Source: Tannerella sp. (GTDB taxonomy: Bacteria; Bacteroidota; Bacteroidia; Bacteroidales; Tannerellaceae). Taken from it: a stretch of 10,820 nucleotides of DNA. Made by a program: the position numbers and the translations under genes. Shown in pieces: positions 2,594 to 10,820 of the stretch (positions are counted from its first letter, which is position 1; each line of letters opens with the position of its first letter). The stretch covers positions 1 through 10,820 of the forward strand of contig JAIRYY010000300.1 of assembly GCA_031267485.1 (NCBI GenBank), given 5' to 3'. The notes below the pieces were generated by a model, which saw only the letters and a list, made by a program, of their open reading frames with translations, did not search any database and was not told the origin of the DNA.

Positions 2594-4414
2594 ATGGTAA
2601 AGCGATTGAATTTAATTATTTTGTTTGTATCTGTAAGCATTGCGTCCTTTTCGCAGCGACAGATGGAGTATTTGGACCGGGGACTTGTCGCTGTGAAAGC
2701 GGCTGACGGAGTTTTCCTGAGCTGGCGCCTGCTGGACGGCGATTCTTCCGGCGAGTCATTCAATATCTATAAAAACGGCGTCCTGCTGAATCAGCAGCCG
2801 CTATCGGAAGCGACCTGTTATACGGATGAAAACGGAACGGTTTCGGACAGATATGCCGTCAAAACATTATCCGGCAAAGTCGCGGCTGAGTCAAAAACGG
2901 TCAGCCCCTGGGAACAGCCGTATAAAATCATACGGATGAACAGGCCCGAAGCGCCGGAAGCCGGGACTCCCGAACCCGGACGCAATGCGCCGGCTTATTT
3001 GCCGAATGATTGCGGCGTGGGAGATTTGGATGGAGACGGCGAATATGAAATTGTAGTTAAGTGGAATGCGCGTGCGCGCGATAATTCGCACGAGGGCATG
3101 ACCGACAATGTATATCTTGACGCTTATAAACTGGACGGAACGCAGCTGTGGCGAATTGATTTGGGGAAGAACATCCGCGCCGGAGCGCATTATACGCAGT
3201 TTATGGTATATGACCTGGACGGAGACGGAATTGCGGAAATTGCCTGTAAAACGGCTCCGGGCACGATTGACGGACGGGGTGAAGCCGTTCTTTTGGACAG
3301 GGATGACCCGAATATGAATTATCGCAACGAAAAAGGACATGTCATAGACGGGCCTGAATATCTGACCGTTTTCAACGGGAAGACGGGCGCTGCCGCGACG
3401 ACGATTCCATACAATCCTCCGCGCGGCAACGATTTGAGAGCCATTTGGGGAGATGCCGGCGGCAACCGCTCCGACCGTTATCTCGCCTGTATCGCTTATC
3501 TGGACGGCAAACATCCCTCGCTGGTGATGTGTCGCGGATATTATACAAGAGCCGTGCTCGCCGCTTACGATTTCAAAGACGGCAAACTGACGGAACGCTG
3601 GGTCTATGATTCCGGTTTGCAGAAAGACACGAAAAATACCGCTTACGGCCAGGGCAATCACAGTATTGCCGTCGGGGATACGGACGGGGATGGCTGCGAC
3701 GAAATTATTTATGGCGGAGCGGCGATTGACCATGATGGCGTTTTGATGTATTCTACCGGTCTGGGGCATGGCGACGCCCATCATCTTTCGGATTTGAATC
3801 CCGACCGCAAGGGGCTGGAATTTTTCACCGTACATGAGTCAAAACCCAATCCGGCAGGCGTGGAACTTCGTGATGCACGGACGGGAGAACTGCTTTTCGG
3901 GAGACCGACAACGATTGATGTGGGGCGCGGACTTGCCGCCGACATAGACCCCCGTTATCGCGGCTTTGAATTTTGGAGTTCCGCTTCCGACAGTGTTTAT
4001 AACATAAACGGTGAAGTTATTTCCACTCAAAAACCCAGCGTCAATTTCCGCATATATTGGGATGGCGACCTGCAGGACGAATTGCTGGACGGAACAAAAA
4101 TCGCGAAATGGAACGGAAACGGAACCGATTTGCTGGTCGATTTCAAGACCTGCGGAGCTGCGTCCATCAATGGGACTAAAAACAATCCCTGCCTGAGCGC
4201 CGATTTATTGGGAGACTGGCGCGAGGAAGCCATTTATTATAACCAGGAAGAACCGGATAAACTGATGATATTCACAACCGTTATCCCTACTCAGTATCGC
4301 CTGCCGGCGCTGATGCAGGACCCTGTTTACCGTCTGAGCGTCGCCTGGCAGAATGTCGCCTATAATCAGCCTCCCCATTTGGGATTTTATATCGGGGACG
4401 GTATTCATCCATGA
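2594..4414 (+). CDS. Rhamnogalacturonan lyase, polysaccharide lyase family 11
   Basis: The 606-residue protein starts with a signal peptide (about 1-20, cleavage likely at SFS|QRQ) and therefore works outside the cytoplasm. A short N-terminal beta domain (about 22-105) is followed by the family's beta-propeller. The propeller carries repeated calcium-binding loops DLDGDG (144-149 and 207-212) and DTDGDG (362-367), plus conserved blocks such as AGAHYTQFMVYD, YGQGNHSIAVGD and GLGHGDAHHLSD. PL11 enzymes cleave the rhamnose-(1,4)-galacturonic acid linkage of the rhamnogalacturonan I backbone by beta-elimination, leaving an unsaturated galacturonic acid end. The length is normal for the family. 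The ATG at 2594 follows an A/T-rich leader without a Shine-Dalgarno site, as is usual in Bacteroidetes. It is the first gene of a three-gene operon, and the next start lies 31 bases after its stop. Confidence 0.94.
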   Translation: MVKRLNLIILFVSVSIASFSQRQMEYLDRGLVAVKAADGVFLSWRLLDGDSSGESFNIYKNGVLLNQQPLSEATCYTDENGTVSDRYAVKTLSGKVAAESKTVSPWEQPYKIIRMNRPEAPEAGTPEPGRNAPAYLPNDCGVGDLDGDGEYEIVVKWNARARDNSHEGMTDNVYLDAYKLDGTQLWRIDLGKNIRAGAHYTQFMVYDLDGDGIAEIACKTAPGTIDGRGEAVLLDRDDPNMNYRNEKGHVIDGPEYLTVFNGKTGAAATTIPYNPPRGNDLRAIWGDAGGNRSDRYLACIAYLDGKHPSLVMCRGYYTRAVLAAYDFKDGKLTERWVYDSGLQKDTKNTAYGQGNHSIAVGDTDGDGCDEIIYGGAAIDHDGVLMYSTGLGHGDAHHLSDLNPDRKGLEFFTVHESKPNPAGVELRDARTGELLFGRPTTIDVGRGLAADIDPRYRGFEFWSSASDSVYNINGEVISTQKPSVNFRIYWDGDLQDELLDGTKIAKWNGNGTDLLVDFKTCGAASINGTKNNPCLSADLLGDWREEAIYYNQEEPDKLMIFTTVIPTQYRLPALMQDPVYRLSVAWQNVAYNQPPHLGFYIGDGIHP

Positions 4415-4445
4415 TGCAATGAATTTGCATGCAATCACGATAAAA

Positions 4446-7322
4446 ATGGAACACAAAAGACTGATAACAATATTCATGCTTTTTGCCCTGATGAGCGGTT
4501 TAACCGGCTGTGGAGAATCGACGCGCAGCCGCAATTCCGAAACGGGAAAAATCGAATGGCCGGAAGTTACCGGGGAAACGAAGCCCTGGACAAGATGGTG
4601 GTGGCACGGAAGCGCCGTTACCGAAGAGGGTCTTACCGCAGCGCTCGAAGCATACCGGGATGCGGGATTGGGAGGCGTGGAGATCACGCCGATTTACGGC
4701 GTCCGCGGAAAGGAAGACCTGTTCATCGAATTTCTTTCTCCGGAGTGGATGGACAAACTCGCGTATACGCTCAAAGAGGCGCAGCGGCTTGGCCTGGGCG
4801 TTGACCTGGCCAACGCGTCGGGATGGCCTTTCGGCGGCCCCTGGGTGGATGACGAAACAGCCTGCAAATATATGGTTTCGAAAGTATATAAGGTGCAGGG
4901 AGGCCAGAAACTGACGGAAGCAGTCGAATACATCCAGCAGCCGATAGTCCGCACGGCCGGCAGTAAACGGGTTACAATAAAAGACATTAAAGAGCCGGTG
5001 ACGGCGAACTCCAATCTGCAGGAATATGCGTTCGACCAGGTGCGCTATGAAAAGAAACTGCCGGTTATTGCCGTAACTGCCGGCAGGAACGGCGAGGACG
5101 GTTTTACGGAATCCATAGACCTCACGGACAGGGTCGCCGACGGCAGGCTCGAATGGACTGCTCCCGAGGGCGAATGGACGGTATGCGCACTTTTTCTGGG
5201 TCATCACGGTAAAATGGTGGAACGCGCGGGCCCCGGCGGCGAAGGCAATGTAATCGACCATTTTTCCGCGGAAGCGCTGGAGAAATATCTGACCCGGTTT
5301 GATGAGGCTTTTAAGGGGCGCGACCTCGGTTACCTGCGTTATTTCTTCAACGATTCGTATGAGGTGGACGACGCACAGGGGGAATCGAACTGGACGCCGG
5401 AGTTTTTTGCCGGATTCAGGGAACTGAACGGCTACGAACTGAAAGAACATCTGCCGGCTTTGCTGGGATTGGATACCGAAGAAAAAAACAGCCGGGTAAT
5501 ATACGATTACCGCGCGGCCATCAACGGCCTGCTGCTTGAGAAATATACCCGGAACTGGCAGCGCTGGGCGGCCGGACAGGGCAAGGGGATCCGGAATCAG
5601 TCACACGGCTCGCCGGGCAATCTGCTCGACCTGTATGCGGCAAGCGATGTGCCCGAAATAGAGGGGAACGACATCGTGAATCTCAAGAGCGCCCCTTCGG
5701 CGGCGCACGTGACAGGAAAGAAACTCATTTCGTCCGAATCGGCCACCTGGCTGGGCGAACATTTCGAGTCAACATTGGGTGACGTTAAATCGAACATCGA
5801 CAGGTTCCTGCTGGCCGGGGTAAATCATGTTTTCTACCACGGCACGGCCTACTCTCCGACGGACGCCGCATGGCCGGGCTGGCTGTTCTATGCGGCCGTT
5901 CATTTTGAGCCGGCCAACAGTTTTCACGACGATTTCGGAGCGGTCAACCGTTCTGTGGCGCGTGCACAGAGTTTCCTGCAGTCCGGCAGGCCATCGAACG
6001 ATATCCTGGTGTACTATGCGATTGCCGACGAATGGTCGGCTCCGTCCCGCAGCATGCTCCGGCACACACATACCAACACGGTTTTTCAGGGAATCAGGGA
6101 ATACGTGAATGAGCTTACGGAAAACGGTTACACCTGGGATGCCATATCGGACAGACAGCTGCTTGATGTGTTGTACCGCAATTCCACGCTGCATACGGGC
6201 GGCAACAGTTACAAAACCATCCTGGCGCCTGCAACGCACTACATGCCCGCCGCAACGTTCGAAAAATTAATGTCTCTGGCGCACGACGGCGCTACCGTAT
6301 TATTCTGTAAAGAGCTTCCGGCGGATGTGCCGGGGCTGGCCGGCCTTGAACCGTCGCGCAGGAAGATGGTTTCACTGAAGGAAAATCTCTCTTTTGAGCA
6401 AAACGGCCGTATCCGGATTGCCGGGCATGGCAAAGGGCGCATCATTGTTTCGGATGATATAACCGCGCTCATGGCCGAAGCCGGCGTCGTTCCCGAAAGC
6501 ATGTATGCGGCCGGACTTCAATGCATCCGGCGAATCAGGGACGACGGCAATTTTTACTATTTCATCCTGAACGCATCCGAAAAACCGTTTGAAGGATGGC
6601 TCACGCTCAACGCGGATTATGGCTCTGCCGCGTTATACAACCCGATGACCGGCGCCGACGGCTATGCCAGTACACGCGGGAACAACGGCCAAACGGAACT
6701 GTATGTACAGATGAAACCGCGCGAATCGCTGATAGTCGAAACATTCAAAGGCAGGCGTTCCGGCGCCGCATATCCCTTTTACGAACTTTCCGGCGAAGCG
6801 GTTGCAGTTTCCGGAAACTGGGATATTTCTTTCGTGAAAGGCGGGCCGGTACTCCCGGCAGCATTATCGGTTAACGCGCCGGTACTATGGAACAGTTACG
6901 GCGGAGAATATGCCGCCTTCTCCGGGACGGCGGCATATACGGCCCGGATACCGTCTTTGCCGTCCACTCCCGATGCCTGGCTTCTGGACCTCGGCGAAGT
7001 TCACGAGAGCGCCTCAGTGCATATTAACGGAAAATATGTGGGGACGCTCGTCAACAGCCCGTACAGCCTTGAAATACCTGCCGGAGCGCTGAAAGGCGGC
7101 GACGAACTGACGGTAAGGGTGTCGAACCTGATGGCCAACCGGATAGCCGAGCTCGACAAAAGAGGCGTGGAATGGAAAATCTTCTACAACACCAATATCA
7201 ACGCACGGTTCAGGGAAAATACGGGAACAGACGGCAAATTCTCGGCCAAAGGCTGGACGCCCAAAGATTCCGGACTTTCGGGGCCGGTAACATTAACGCC
7301 ATTAGTATTAAAAAACAAATAA
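4446..7322 (+). CDS. Alpha-L-rhamnosidase, glycoside hydrolase family 106, lipoprotein
   Basis: From the ATG at 4446 the product has 958 residues and opens with a textbook lipoprotein signal, charged MEHKR, a hydrophobic core and lipobox LTGC with the lipidated cysteine at 22. It should therefore be anchored in the outer membrane, facing the periplasm or the surface. Family GH106 hallmarks include RWWWHGSAVTEEGL (50-63), GGVEITPIYG (76-85), ASGWPFGGPWV (124-134), YFFNDSYE (299-306) and SSESATWLGEHFEST (429-443) in the long catalytic region, and a C-terminal jelly-roll domain (about 780-895, with DLGEVHESASVHINGKYVG). GH106 enzymes remove rhamnose, including rhamnose exposed at chain ends of rhamnogalacturonan oligosaccharides. 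In-frame ATGs at 4353 and 4419 also exist. The first would overlap the lyase gene, and both blur the signal peptide. GH28 begins 10 bases after the stop. Confidence 0.92.
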   Translation: MEHKRLITIFMLFALMSGLTGCGESTRSRNSETGKIEWPEVTGETKPWTRWWWHGSAVTEEGLTAALEAYRDAGLGGVEITPIYGVRGKEDLFIEFLSPEWMDKLAYTLKEAQRLGLGVDLANASGWPFGGPWVDDETACKYMVSKVYKVQGGQKLTEAVEYIQQPIVRTAGSKRVTIKDIKEPVTANSNLQEYAFDQVRYEKKLPVIAVTAGRNGEDGFTESIDLTDRVADGRLEWTAPEGEWTVCALFLGHHGKMVERAGPGGEGNVIDHFSAEALEKYLTRFDEAFKGRDLGYLRYFFNDSYEVDDAQGESNWTPEFFAGFRELNGYELKEHLPALLGLDTEEKNSRVIYDYRAAINGLLLEKYTRNWQRWAAGQGKGIRNQSHGSPGNLLDLYAASDVPEIEGNDIVNLKSAPSAAHVTGKKLISSESATWLGEHFESTLGDVKSNIDRFLLAGVNHVFYHGTAYSPTDAAWPGWLFYAAVHFEPANSFHDDFGAVNRSVARAQSFLQSGRPSNDILVYYAIADEWSAPSRSMLRHTHTNTVFQGIREYVNELTENGYTWDAISDRQLLDVLYRNSTLHTGGNSYKTILAPATHYMPAATFEKLMSLAHDGATVLFCKELPADVPGLAGLEPSRRKMVSLKENLSFEQNGRIRIAGHGKGRIIVSDDITALMAEAGVVPESMYAAGLQCIRRIRDDGNFYYFILNASEKPFEGWLTLNADYGSAALYNPMTGADGYASTRGNNGQTELYVQMKPRESLIVETFKGRRSGAAYPFYELSGEAVAVSGNWDISFVKGGPVLPAALSVNAPVLWNSYGGEYAAFSGTAAYTARIPSLPSTPDAWLLDLGEVHESASVHINGKYVGTLVNSPYSLEIPAGALKGGDELTVRVSNLMANRIAELDKRGVEWKIFYNTNINARFRENTGTDGKFSAKGWTPKDSGLSGPVTLTPLVLKNK

Positions 7323-7332
7323 AACAAATGTC

Positions 7333-8673
7333 ATGGTAAATAAAAAGATTTTTTTACTCGTATTGATAACCCTTGCAGGGTTGGAATCCCGCGTGGGATT
7401 AAGCGCGCAAACCGGCCTGTTTCCCGATGGAACGCCTGTTCCGGAATGGTTTCGGCAAACAGAGCCAACCGACATCAACAAGCTGGGCCGGCATTACCGC
7501 ATAACCGAGCATGGCGTTGCGAACGACAGCGCCGAAGTTCAAACTTCCCTGATTCAGGCGGTTATTGACAAAGCCCACGAAAACGGTGGCGGCGTGGTGC
7601 TTATTCCGAAAGGTACATTTCTCAGCGGCTCTCTATTCTTCAAACAGGGCGTGCATTTGCATCTGGAAGAAGGGGCGACGCTCAAGGGCAGCGATGATAT
7701 TTCCGACTTTGCCATTGTCAGCACACGAATCGAAGGGCAGACTCTTAAATATTTTGCGGCGCTTGTCAATGCCGACGGCCTGGACGGCTTTACCATATCG
7801 GGCAGGGGAACGATAAACGGCAACGGACTTCGCTTCTGGAAAGCATTCTGGCTGCGTCGCCAGTGGAATCCGAGGTGTACCAATATGGACGAGCAGCGCC
7901 CGCGCCTGCTGTTTGTTTCAAACAGCCGTAACGTTCAGATTTCCGATGTCCGTCTGATTAATTCGCCGTTCTGGACAAGTCATTATTACAAATGCGAAAA
8001 ACTGAAACTGCTGAATCTGCACATCTTTGCGCCAACTTCGGGCGTTAAGGCGCCCAGTTCGGATGCCATCGACATCGACGTTTGCCAGGATGTACTGATT
8101 AAAAACTGCTATATGTCGGTCAATGATGATGCCATAGCGCTGAAAGGCGGAAAAGGCCCGACGGCCGACCAGGACCCCAACAATGGCGCAAACCGGAATA
8201 TCATTATAGAAGACAATACGTTCGAAAATTGTCCCGTACTGACCTGTGGCAGCGAATCGGTTCACACATACAACGTCATTCTGCGCCGCTGCAAGTTTGA
8301 AAATGCCCACAACGTCCTGCTGCTGAAAATGCGCCCCGACACGCCGCAGAAGCACGAATATATTCTGGTGGAAGATGTCTCCGGCACAACCAGAACACTC
8401 CTGAACATCAGCCCGTGGACACAGTTTTTTGACCTCAAGGGACACGAACCGCCCACCTCGTCGGCAAGCAATATTGTCATGCGCAATATCACGGTTAAAA
8501 GCCGGACGGCTTTCAATATCAGAGAATCGGAGCAATATAAACTGTCGGATTTCACGCTCGAAAATCTGCAGATATCTTCGGAAGAAGAATCGAAACAGCC
8601 GTTTGACTTTATCAAAAATCCGGTTTTGAAAAATGTTACGGTGAATGGCCAAAAAATAGAAAACACCCGGTAA
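7333..8673 (+). CDS. Polygalacturonase-type glycoside hydrolase, family 28
   Basis: The 446-residue protein has a signal peptide (about 1-25, LSA|QTG) and a right-handed beta-helix of family GH28. Conserved blocks are NSPFW (210-214), SSDAID (242-247, in the place of the NTD motif), NDDAIALKGGK (264-274, the paired catalytic aspartates D265 and D266), CGSES (305-309, where classical members have GHG) and LLKMRPD (330-336, corresponding to RIK). The three acidic catalytic residues are kept. The histidine of GHG is replaced by a GSE-type loop, which I believe occurs in many bacterial members. GH28 enzymes hydrolyse galacturonic acid linkages in homogalacturonan or rhamnogalacturonan. With PL11 and GH106 next door, a role in rhamnogalacturonan or its oligosaccharides is most likely, but endo or exo action cannot be told. 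It is the last gene of the operon, followed at once by a strong hairpin. Confidence 0.9.
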   Translation: MVNKKIFLLVLITLAGLESRVGLSAQTGLFPDGTPVPEWFRQTEPTDINKLGRHYRITEHGVANDSAEVQTSLIQAVIDKAHENGGGVVLIPKGTFLSGSLFFKQGVHLHLEEGATLKGSDDISDFAIVSTRIEGQTLKYFAALVNADGLDGFTISGRGTINGNGLRFWKAFWLRRQWNPRCTNMDEQRPRLLFVSNSRNVQISDVRLINSPFWTSHYYKCEKLKLLNLHIFAPTSGVKAPSSDAIDIDVCQDVLIKNCYMSVNDDAIALKGGKGPTADQDPNNGANRNIIIEDNTFENCPVLTCGSESVHTYNVILRRCKFENAHNVLLLKMRPDTPQKHEYILVEDVSGTTRTLLNISPWTQFFDLKGHEPPTSSASNIVMRNITVKSRTAFNIRESEQYKLSDFTLENLQISSEEESKQPFDFIKNPVLKNVTVNGQKIENTR

Positions 8674-8678
8674 TCATG

Positions 8679-8705
8679 TAAGGGCGCCCACAAGGGGCGC
8701 CCTTA
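8679..8705 (+). terminator. Strong GC-rich hairpin ending the PL11-GH106-GH28 operon
   Basis: TAAGGGCGCCC (8679-8689) and GGGCGCCCTTA (8695-8705) form a perfect 11-base-pair stem with a 5-base loop, starting five bases after the GH28 stop. No clear T-tract follows, so it may be a weak intrinsic terminator or an RNA 3' end protecting structure. Either way it marks the boundary between the enzyme operon and the susC transcription unit. Confidence 0.7.
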
Positions 8706-8744: not shown

Positions 8745-8794
8745 ATGATTTTTTTAATCTATCATTGTTTTTTTGAAATATGTACTTATATTTG
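8745..8794 (+). promoter_or_regulatory. Promoter region of the susC transcription unit
   Basis: TATATTTG at 8787-8794 is a perfect -7 element, with ATTG at 8764-8767 as a -33 box (TTG core) at a 19-base spacing. Just upstream ATGAT (8745-8749) and ATCAT (8761-8765) form an inverted repeat overlapping the -33 box, a plausible operator. Transcription would start near 8801, leaving a leader of about 390 bases before susC. A poorer -7 like element, TATTTATG at 9167-9174, lies close to susC but has no convincing -33. Confidence 0.55.
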
Positions 8795-8828
8795 CCGGCG
8801 AAAACTTGATGGAGAGTTTGTAAAATGT

Positions 8829-8954
8829 ATGAAAACAATAATTAATATGACTATTTTTTCGCCATCTCATATCACGGATAACTTTCATTCAAACCTTTGG
8901 ATGAGAGGGTTTGGCATGATTCTTGCAGAGAGAGAGAGAGAGAGAGAGAGATGA
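8829..8954 (+). other. Small leader open frame ending in the AG repeat, doubtful gene
   Basis: An ATG at 8829, downstream of the predicted transcription start, opens a 41-codon frame. Its last eight codons are the AG repeat read as alternating Glu and Arg, and it stops at TGA 8952-8954. The frame after the repeat that stays open to 9183 is offset by one base, so gain of one AG unit (or loss of two) would fuse them into a frame of about 118 codons ending 10 bases before susC. The peptide has no recognisable similarity and may well be untranslated. Confidence 0.15.
8927..8950 (+). repeat. (AG)12 dinucleotide microsatellite
   Basis: Twelve uninterrupted AG units lie in the susC leader. Pure dinucleotide tracts this long are rare in bacterial genomes and mutate readily by slipped-strand mispairing. 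The tract is all-purine on the + strand, so it could also take up triplex-type structure. Its place between promoter and start codon means length changes could affect transcription, leader folding or translation of a leader frame. Such an effect is inferred, not shown. Confidence 0.97.
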
Positions 8955-8982
8955 GCAGGCTTATCAGAAATTAGCCACACTT

Positions 8983-9002
8983 GCATACGCGCGCGCATAC
9001 GC
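8983..9002 (+). repeat. GCATACGC direct repeat in an alternating purine-pyrimidine tract
   Basis: GCATACGC at 8983-8990 is repeated at 8995-9002 with GCGC between, giving a 12-base period. All 20 bases strictly alternate purine and pyrimidine, the pattern that favours left-handed DNA under negative supercoiling. It lies 32 bases after the AG repeat. It could also be a direct-repeat protein binding site. Confidence 0.8.
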
Positions 9003-9193
9003 AAATAATAAATTCCTAAAAAACTATCTTTTAATTTTATTCTTTATTAAATCCTTACCGGGGGCTTTATCTTTAAAAGTTCCGGGTGGTGGTATATCCG
9101 CGCCTTTCCGGGTGCGGCCGTTTTCCCATGCTCAAAAAGCGTATTTTTCTTTATTCTTTATATATCTATTTATGTTAAACTAAAAAATGTAAC

Positions 9194-10820
9194 ATGATGA
9201 AAATTAAATTTGTTGTTGTCAAAAGGAATACATGGCGCAAAATCGCTTGCGCGATGCTGTGTATTTTCTTTGGTTCGCTTGTCGCCTTTGCGCAGAGACA
9301 GGTGACGGGAACTGTGAAAGATTCCGGAGGAGAGGCCCTTATCGGTGCAAACGTCATCGAGAAGGGAAAGGCCAACGGGGTAATTACGGATGCGGATGGG
9401 AATTTTTCGCTGAAAGTGTCGGAGAATGCCGTATTGCAGGTGTCGTATATCGGGTATGTGACACAGGAAATCAGGAACTTTTCTACGGACAGGCCCGTGC
9501 ATGTCATCCTGTCGGAAAATGTTCAGATGCTGGATGAAGTGGTTGCCATAGGGTATGGTTCCCAATCCAAAATGAAATTGACGGGTTCATCTTCCTTTTT
9601 AAAATCGGAGGAACTCGGTAAAATGCAGAGCACAAATTTCGCCCAGCAGATAATCGGGAAAATGTCGGGCATTATCATTAACGAAACGTCCGGACAGCCC
9701 CATCAGTCTCCCCAAATAATTATACGGGGCATAGGAACTTTGACTGCCGGGATTGCTCCGCTGATTGTCATCGACGGTTTTCCGCTGTCGGAGGGGACTG
9801 CATTAAATGCAATAAACCCCAATGATATTGAATCCGTCAATGTACTGAAAGATGCTGCCGCTGCTTCAATTTACGGTTCCAGAGGGGCCAACGGGGTTAT
9901 TCTCGTTACGACGAAAAAAGGACAGTCCGGCAGTCGCAGCAAGGTTGAATTTAATTACTACACGGGCTTTCAGCAGCAATCTTCCAAACTGGAATTAGCC
10001 AATGCTGCAGAGACTGCTCAATTCCTGACGGAAGCAAGGGATTGGGGGTATGTATCAAGAGATCCTGACAATAGAAATGAAAATGACGACGAGGCTACCC
10101 GAATCGCCAAAGGAGCGAACTTACGTCAAAGGCGTTTGCATTATCTTACCAATCCGGGATTATCCGGGCTGGCAGATACAAACTGGCTGGATGAAGTATT
10201 CAGGACGGCTCCCGTCAGCAGCTATTCCGCCAGCATATCTGGAGGAACCGACAGGACTTCCTATCTGATTTCAGCCAACTATCTTGATCAGCAGGGGACA
10301 ATTATCGAGACAGACTACAAGCGCTATTCGTCCTCTTTCTCTCTGGAGACAAAACTTGGCAATAAATTTAAATTTGACGTCAGTCTTAATCCGTCCTATT
10401 CAATCTATAATACGTACAATGAAGGGGGAGGAAATAACCAGAATCCGCTTGCCATTTCCTTAATCATGTATCCGTTTTTTTCACCGTATAATGACGACGG
10501 CACTCTGGCTATCGGTACGCAGCTTACCGCTAACGCTCCCGAAGACGGAGCCCTGGCCGAAAATCCCGTAGCGATCATGAAAACAAACATCTATAAACGG
10601 AATAATTTCAGGATTTTCGGACGGGGTGCACTGACTTTTGACATCACAAAAAATCTGCAGTTCAAATCCATGCTTGGCGGAGATTATCGCGGAGAAAACC
10701 AAACGTTTTATACCCCCTCCTATGTAGGACAATATAGAACGACGGCGCCCAAACCGGCAAGTACGATTGAATATTCATTCTTCAGAAACAATTTTATAAC
10801 GGAGAATACCCTGTCTTTTA
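9194..10820 (+). CDS. SusC/RagA-type TonB-linked outer membrane receptor, partial (3' end beyond window)
   Basis: An uninterrupted frame runs from the ATG at 9194 (or the next codon, 9197) to the right edge, giving 542 residues of a protein that usually has about 1000. A signal peptide (1-33, VAFA|QRQ, with the hydrophobic core near 17-32) is followed by a carboxypeptidase-regulatory-like domain (about 36-107, VTGTVKDSGGEALIGANV). Next come the TonB-box-like DEVVAIGYG (114-122) and the plug domain with IIIRGIG, LIVIDGFPL and the SusC signature block NDIESVNVLKD and SIYGSRGANGVILVTT (210-240). The beginning of the beta-barrel follows. SusC proteins import oligosaccharides through the outer membrane with a SusD lid lipoprotein, which should lie to the right. 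Beside the pectinase operon, rhamnogalacturonan oligosaccharides are the likely cargo. It has its own promoter and an unusual repeat-bearing leader. Confidence 0.95.
   Translation, partial: MMKIKFVVVKRNTWRKIACAMLCIFFGSLVAFAQRQVTGTVKDSGGEALIGANVIEKGKANGVITDADGNFSLKVSENAVLQVSYIGYVTQEIRNFSTDRPVHVILSENVQMLDEVVAIGYGSQSKMKLTGSSSFLKSEELGKMQSTNFAQQIIGKMSGIIINETSGQPHQSPQIIIRGIGTLTAGIAPLIVIDGFPLSEGTALNAINPNDIESVNVLKDAAAASIYGSRGANGVILVTTKKGQSGSRSKVEFNYYTGFQQQSSKLELANAAETAQFLTEARDWGYVSRDPDNRNENDDEATRIAKGANLRQRRLHYLTNPGLSGLADTNWLDEVFRTAPVSSYSASISGGTDRTSYLISANYLDQQGTIIETDYKRYSSSFSLETKLGNKFKFDVSLNPSYSIYNTYNEGGGNNQNPLAISLIMYPFFSPYNDDGTLAIGTQLTANAPEDGALAENPVAIMKTNIYKRNNFRIFGRGALTFDITKNLQFKSMLGGDYRGENQTFYTPSYVGQYRTTAPKPASTIEYSFFRNNFITENTLSF

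Follow-up and report, generated by a model that had tools for sequence, protein, structure and literature searches.

An AG-repeat leader reading frame as a probable phase-variation switch ahead of susC-type receptor genes in Bacteroidales

The best known phase-variation switch of the Bacteroidales is the invertible promoter, which is turned by an invertase and phase-varies SusC/SusD families and capsules in Bacteroides. Leader-peptide attenuation of the trp type has a different layout: a leader ORF, a hairpin in the ORF region and a downstream terminator hairpin, with tRNA charging as the signal. The closest described system comes from Streptococcus gallolyticus. According to the available part of PMC3894217, which also mentions leader-peptide attenuation such as trp, GCAGA (5 nt) repeats lie in a leader ORF ahead of the pil1 (and pil3) pilus genes. 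At pil1 the number of repeats sets the frame, and hence the position of the leader-peptide stop relative to a hairpin terminator; in the same excerpt the two expression states are given as proven. Twelve AG repeats are described, in the portion available of PMC3498834, in the Mycoplasma methyltransferase M.MmyCI, a case of classical simple sequence repeat (SSR) phase variation in a coding gene. In B. thetaiotaomicron some long 5' UTRs contain short ORFs (PMC7366714, excerpt). No description of a repeat-bearing leader ORF in Bacteroidales was found in the open-access PMC literature among the matches listed, and the available part of PMC11868660 lacks the terms leader peptide, attenuation, gallolyticus and dinucleotide.

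The window, a stretch of 10,820 nt of Tannerella sp. DNA, carries a pure (AG)12 tract at 8927-8950, followed by one further A (8927-8951; 25 nt, 12.5 units). The initial annotation had reported the 12 copies and had placed them between the best promoter and the susC start; both points were borne out, the trailing A being the one addition, with a promoter-like site at 8765-8794 and the susC ATG at 9194. A 24 nt AG run has a single match in the window and is contained in 0 of 200 dinucleotide-preserving shuffles; the tract is no chance repeat. From 9194 onwards the susC frame has no stop within the window. Upstream ORFs encode a PL11 rhamnogalacturonan lyase (2594-4414), a GH106 (4353-7322) and a GH28 (7333-8673), and the receptor thus adjoins, by domain search, the enzymes of a SusC-type polysaccharide utilisation locus; the window stops before any susD could appear. 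At gathering scores no Rfam family matched anywhere in the window, and both leader ORFs were without a Pfam match. A perfect 11-bp inverted repeat, TAAGGGCGCCC, is found at 8679-8705, 3' of the GH28 stop; it is terminator-like and divides GH28 from the susC unit. The features of the leader and receptor are as follows.

8765..8794, + strand: promoter-like site read from the sequence, with ATTG at 8765-8768 and a -7 type box TATATTTG at 8787-8794; we take the box types to be those of the Bacteroidetes -33/-7 consensus
8847..8954, + strand: predicted leader ORF at 12 AG copies, 27 codons plus (ER)4, stop TGA at 8952-8954 (from the ORF, the conserved ATG position and a purifying pattern)
8875..8913, + strand: RNA hairpin just before the tract (dG -14.6, z -3.29 for 8871-8916)
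8927..8951, + strand: (AG)12 + A simple sequence repeat, read as Glu-Arg codons (from the sequence and shuffles)
8951..9183, + strand: long open frame after the tract, stop TAA at 9181-9183, which joins the leader ATG at 10, 13, 16... copies (10 and 13 computed)
8955..8959, + strand: GCAGG motif after the tract, common to many genus loci (locus comparison)
8982..9004, + strand: alternating CG/CA stretch, present after many genus tracts (read from the sequences, no statistics)
9058..9086, + strand: leader hairpin 1 (dG -10.9, z -2.67)
9098..9117, + strand: leader hairpin 2 (dG about -13), then CCGTTTTCCC; weak candidate attenuator
9194..10820, + strand: susC-like TonB-dependent receptor with PF13715 (CarboxypepD_reg-like) and PF07715 (Plug), which runs off the window

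The initial annotation had missed that the tract lies inside an ORF and that one of the frames leaving it is open to 9183, 10 nt before susC. The tract is in frame within the leader ORF, directly 3' of the RNA hairpin, and a second in-frame ATG is present at 8829. As at pil1, the repeats sit in a short ORF 3' of a promoter, the translation itself being predicted. The post-tract stops are TGA at 8952-8954, TAG at 8972-8974 and the TAA of the long frame. The peptide computed for the window has 35 aa at 12 copies, ending 239 nt before susC; at 13 copies it has 112 aa and ends 10 nt before susC, and at 14 copies it has 43 aa and ends 219 nt before susC. The AG unit is not a multiple of 3 and the copy number sets the stop position, again as in pil1. 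From the distance of 239 nt the assembled state (12 copies) is predicted to be OFF, and one copy more would give the ON frame. Two other ways of reading the tract were rejected. Classical translational SSR phase variation does not apply to susC itself, as the tract ends 242 nt before its ATG. An SD-like or ATG-after-tract gene start (ATGNGCAGG) is not favoured; in motif-bearing loci this frame usually ends after about 15-21 nt, and it runs on in a few (e.g. L052, L059, L075, L079).

These features suggest that the AG tract is probably a phase-variation switch acting via a translated leader, by attenuation that depends on the length of translation. Transcription would start near 8800, and ribosomes would begin the leader ORF at 8847 and read on through to the tract. 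Slippage would gain or lose AG units, 2 nt each, and so shift the exit frame. In two of the three frames translation would halt directly after the tract (8954 or 8974), some 220-240 nt of leader RNA would be free of ribosomes, and transcription would end early or the susC start would stay closed; this would be the OFF state. In the third frame, ON, ribosomes would keep up behind the polymerase as far as 9183, which is 10 nt short of the susC ATG. The ON frame would disrupt the attenuator, for which the sequence logic is found in relatives and is weak in the window, and it may couple translation to susC. The scheme presumes transcription-translation coupling in Bacteroidales. It builds on the observed ORF, frames, conservation, hairpins and covariation, and from these we infer slippage, transcription, translation, termination and expression.

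The same arrangement recurs in this genome, which has 17 tract starts (45 in the genus genome G049, some of them in another element). An ORF enters the tract in all 17. An ATG is found at -80 in 13 and at -74, -79, -152 and -159 in the remainder, a TAnnTTTG box lies at -200..-80 from the tract in 16/17, and the 70 nt preceding the tract have a folding energy of -10 kcal/mol or lower in 15/17. Eight of the tracts have 1.5 kb or more of sequence after them, and susC follows in 7 of these; the other nine lie too close to a contig end. Promoter and leader were matched at six other places in this genome with 73-84% identity. Across the genus, tract starts of (AG)>=8 are present in 32 of 41 genomes and in 6 of the 13 most complete. 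The anchored form AG...ATGNGCAGG is present in 12 of the 41, with 0 in the reversed control and 0 matches to the pattern on viral contigs. The named carriers in a contig scan were 24 loci of 'Tannerella sp.' MAGs, one Dysgonamonadaceae MAG, Bacteroidales bacterium OttesenSCG-928-M11 and one 'bacterium' MAG. Such 'Tannerella sp.' bins presumably come from termite guts. The pattern match in the GC-rich 'bacterium' MAG (L174) was judged by eye to be chance.

A genus set was made of the window and 113 fetched loci, selected non-randomly from among the matches listed and holding 116 tracts; 2 of the 113 loci are without a tract of at least seven units. In 76/116 tracts an open ATG is found 68-83 nt upstream, and the same test at six shifted control points gave 12/106, 9/105, 12/105, 11/102, 14/102 and 8/98. 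A leader ATG, taken as the candidate closest to -79, is present for 100 tracts, and its distance modulo 3 is distributed 77/19/4. The TAnnTTTG box at -175..-80 is found in 75/105 genus tracts, compared with 4/98 at -400..-305; the tracts of the other G049 element are still within these ATG-position and promoter counts, within the comparison of sequences that follow the tract and within the count of current frames given below. susC is downstream on the same strand in at least 60 of the 76 tracts that are followed by 1.5 kb or more of sequence, and antisense in none, the 60 being a lower bound because the window susC served as the one tblastn query. Tracts with <1,500 nt downstream were left out of this count, the split-tract loci L153 and L162 were counted twice, and 14 G049 tracts of the dispersed element were filtered from it; two tracts resembling that element escaped the filter, L158, among the 16 without susC, and one at L109, dropped for its short downstream sequence. 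Near the 16 tracts without a susC match within 2 kb, the downstream genes look HU-like, FecR-like and IPT/TIG-like by eye.

Two side observations concern the same loci. Small genes, several of which we take to be HU-like, separate the tract from susC or from a TIG-like lipoprotein at L075, L080, L081, L101, L113, L124 and L148. In G049 (L104-L107, L109-L111, L114-L116, L118-L120, L122, L158) AG tracts lie inside another dispersed, strongly folding element with a peptide like AINNARSAYAYI, often followed by a ATTCATAACAAACAAA-like stretch and a terminator-like hairpin. None of these elements was seen ahead of susC, and they occur in both orientations relative to the next gene.

The AG tracts range from 15 to 81 nt in length. 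In near-identical leader pairs (at most 6 of 80 positions differ) the length differs in 12 of 13, for example 47 vs 49 nt and 49 vs 53 nt, each with one leader difference; four of the 13 pairs are from the other G049 element and one, the equal-length pair, is from G196. The 12 differing pairs fit slippage, as a comparison of loci, not clones. At L153 and L162 two AG runs are split by one changed base, as expected of interrupted microsatellites.

The frames that leave the tract are far from random. In 40 genus leaders (150-450 nt from tract to susC ATG) the longest frame is 223 nt, compared with 96.5 nt (sd 8.5, max 126.6) in 200 shuffles and 77 nt on the antisense strand. The middle frame is 115 vs 43 nt in shuffles, and the shortest, 18 vs 15 nt, is alike. 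Of 88 tracts, 39 are assembled in the shortest frame, 28 in the middle one and 21 in the longest. The leader peptide itself shows two patterns. In the window's leader family (8 sequences) pS/pN is 2.49 in frame vs 0.73 and 1.36 off frame, which points to purifying selection on the peptide. In a second family (23 sequences) the ratio is 1.15 in frame and 0.94 and 1.70 off frame, and the peptide sequence there is therefore without detectable constraint.

This last result, the wide range of tract lengths and the CG/CA alternating stretch after many tracts would also fit a tract that serves as a length-variable spacer or as a structural or protein-binding element (mRNA stability, an RNA-binding protein, an unusual DNA structure), the ORF being incidental. 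Such a role is unlikely, as the fixed ATG position, the frame bias of the ATG distance and the excess of long frames on the sense strand, with none antisense, need translation. The initial annotation had proposed that copy-number change alters the leader and leaves the receptor untouched, and had named no mechanism. Action in the leader is well supported by the comparison; a reading-frame switch of the leader ORF is favoured over a change in leader length.

In the second leader family, the hairpin before the tract was compared in 22 aligned leaders, chosen for likeness and with the structure derived from one of them; 92.2% of cells are paired and 7 of 14 pairs have changed on both sides. The covariation score was reached by 0 of 500 shuffles, and slid structures fall to 19-45% paired. 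Judged by this covariation, the pre-tract hairpin is conserved as a structure in that family, and it may have a role in pausing; the window's hairpin at 8875-8913 has a comparable position.

Downstream of the tract, a terminator-like hairpin with a T-tail is found at dG<=-8 in 32 of 64 genus leaders (L162, a split tract, being counted twice), vs 7.2 (max 12) in 20 shuffles and 24 antisense. At dG<=-11 the count is 20/64, vs 2.3 (max 5) in shuffles and 17 antisense. The enrichment of hairpins is therefore clear and the strand bias is weak. In 30 of the 32 leaders the longest frame runs beyond the end of the hairpin, vs 7.8 (max 16) in shuffles; the shortest stops before it in all 32, which at 31.0 in shuffles is uninformative. 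Two frames stop before the hairpin in only 18/32, below shuffles (28.1), and the middle frame is long, so that the genus logic is not a clean one-of-three; two frames, not one, are often open.

The window does not belong to these 32. Its leader scores no better than -6.5 in the search for terminator-like hairpins, and the whole-leader fold has a z of only -1.74; its weak hairpins are traversed by the long frame only. As a strong intrinsic terminator is lacking there, the effect would have to come from weaker hairpins, from Rho or from translational coupling. For this reason coupling was kept as a rival: the frame switch in the leader ORF would be the same, and its output would be a ribosome that ends beside the susC start and opens or reloads it, with no terminator. 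The stop of the window's long frame 10 nt before the susC ATG is what this would predict, and the longest frame ends within 30 nt of the susC ATG in 18/40 genus leaders, vs 1.8 (max 5) in shuffles, and close to the gene ATG in two other genomes described below. Against it, in many genus leaders every frame ends at least 60 nt before the susC start, the starts being assigned by script and uncertain for some loci, and the enriched terminator-like hairpins are placed before the long-frame stop. Coupling as the sole output is possible and is held tentatively; attenuation through the translated leader is preferred.

Attenuation of this kind was also looked for across the order, where an AG tract of at least 9 units after a pyrimidine is present in 42 of 295 sampled genomes (own included). 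Loci were fetched for 13 of 17 tracts in G173, 7 of 11 in G070 and 3 of 3 in G059. In G173, a single 4.3 Mb contig, the leader ATG is at -83 in 13/13 loci, and two frames end within 21 nt in 12/13, the exception being L211, whose middle frame runs 226 nt. The longest frame ends within 45 nt of the ATG of a secreted-looking protein in 12/13 (0.3 in shuffles). In G070 it ends within 45 nt of the gene ATG in 7/7 (0.0 in shuffles), and in G059 in 0/3. Over G173 and G070, terminator-like hairpins at <=-11 are present in 15/20 leaders, vs 0-5 in ten shuffles. For the 19 hairpins at <=-8, the longest frame passes in 18/19, vs 2.3 (max 5) in shuffles, and two frames stop before the hairpin in 18/19, vs 17.4 in shuffles. 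All 20 of these loci, and 2/3 in G059, were assembled in a non-long frame and are predicted to be OFF.

On the G173 contig (C1) one strand holds 16 of the 17 AG tracts, with a cluster at 3.00-3.03 Mb. The following proteins often start ..AQVGINT.. and therefore look like an expanded surface-protein family.

Other relatives share less of this layout. At L169 and L179 the leader ORF, tract, GCAGG and CG element are all present; the longest frame ends 131 nt past the tract, and the next ORF start is at 199 and 468 nt. In G196, G185 and G091 (10 loci) the gene is reached no more than in shuffles (3 vs 3.8), and the longest frame is nonetheless 149, vs 80 (max 140) in shuffles. Among 20 tracts from 20 further genomes only 2 follow even a loose form of the rule. 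By these shuffle-level results and the 2/20, only some lineages carry the full architecture. Several tracts of other Bacteroidales families, at L232, L233, L242 and others in L231-L250, are preceded by a CTGAAACCC-like motif and a shorter ORF; they lie a short way ahead of secreted or surface-type proteins and are possibly a second kind of repeat switch. The initial annotation's proposal of a phase-variable switch thus gains comparative support from many loci, differing lengths, non-random frames and terminator-like hairpins in relatives, and on this footing it is upheld in part.

Two further explanations are both very improbable. One is an invertible promoter. A 15-nt inverted repeat (14/15; 8645-8659 / 8851-8865) flanks the window's promoter and is above its 15 shuffles (max 13), but one arm is inside the GH28 coding sequence. 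At the 15 other tracts of the genome the best arm pair has 10-13 of 15 matches, which is no higher than the tract's own shuffle maximum in 14/15 (L131 is above by one), and the arms differ from those of the window; the inverted repeats are not shared. The other is a neutral microsatellite or an assembly artefact, which a fragmented MAG of 351 contigs, several of them ending near tracts, might suggest. It is hard to reconcile with the recurrence of the layout on the one 4.3 Mb contig of G173 and with dozens of relatives that have fixed orientation and frame logic.

If the proposed switch operates, Bacteroidales would have, beside DNA inversion, another and independent way of diversifying their surface: a slippage-driven leader switch ahead of many susC genes and, in other families, of other surface proteins. 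The ON and OFF states would be legible in the sequence, tract length modulo 3 indicating the receptors open to expression in a strain. Possible drivers are diet, phage and immune escape. On balance we lean, by a modest degree, to the broader view that in some Bacteroidales lineages such leaders form a contingency system across the whole genome. At least a dozen surface-receptor operons would each have an AG-repeat leader ORF of their own, the frame read by the ribosome would open or close a single receptor, and slippage, with no recombinase, would let a clone try out different sets of glycan receptors. The switch also makes a testable claim on transcription-translation coupling in this phylum.

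Compared with the known systems, the invertible promoters exert the same reversible control on SusC-type receptors and differ in acting by DNA inversion, there being no shared inverted repeats here. In M.MmyCI the AG copy number likewise sets the frame, but the tract is in the gene itself, whereas here it is in a separate leader ORF about 240 nt upstream. The trp-type layout is alike, with the downstream hairpin here terminator-like, and the signal here would be the repeat number, not tRNA charging. The likeness to pil1 is the closest: simple repeats in a short leader ORF, a frame set by copy number, genes for surface proteins downstream and, in many relatives, a terminator-like hairpin. pil1 has a 5 nt GCAGA unit at two pilus loci in Firmicutes; here the unit is a 2 nt AG (Glu-Arg), in Bacteroidales, with 17 tracts, mostly susC targets and a predicted effect on expression. 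Unlike pil1, a covarying hairpin precedes the tract and the long frame often ends at the gene start. The best reading by this analogy is a pil1-like attenuation that would be multi-locus, act on glycan receptors and operate in Bacteroidales.
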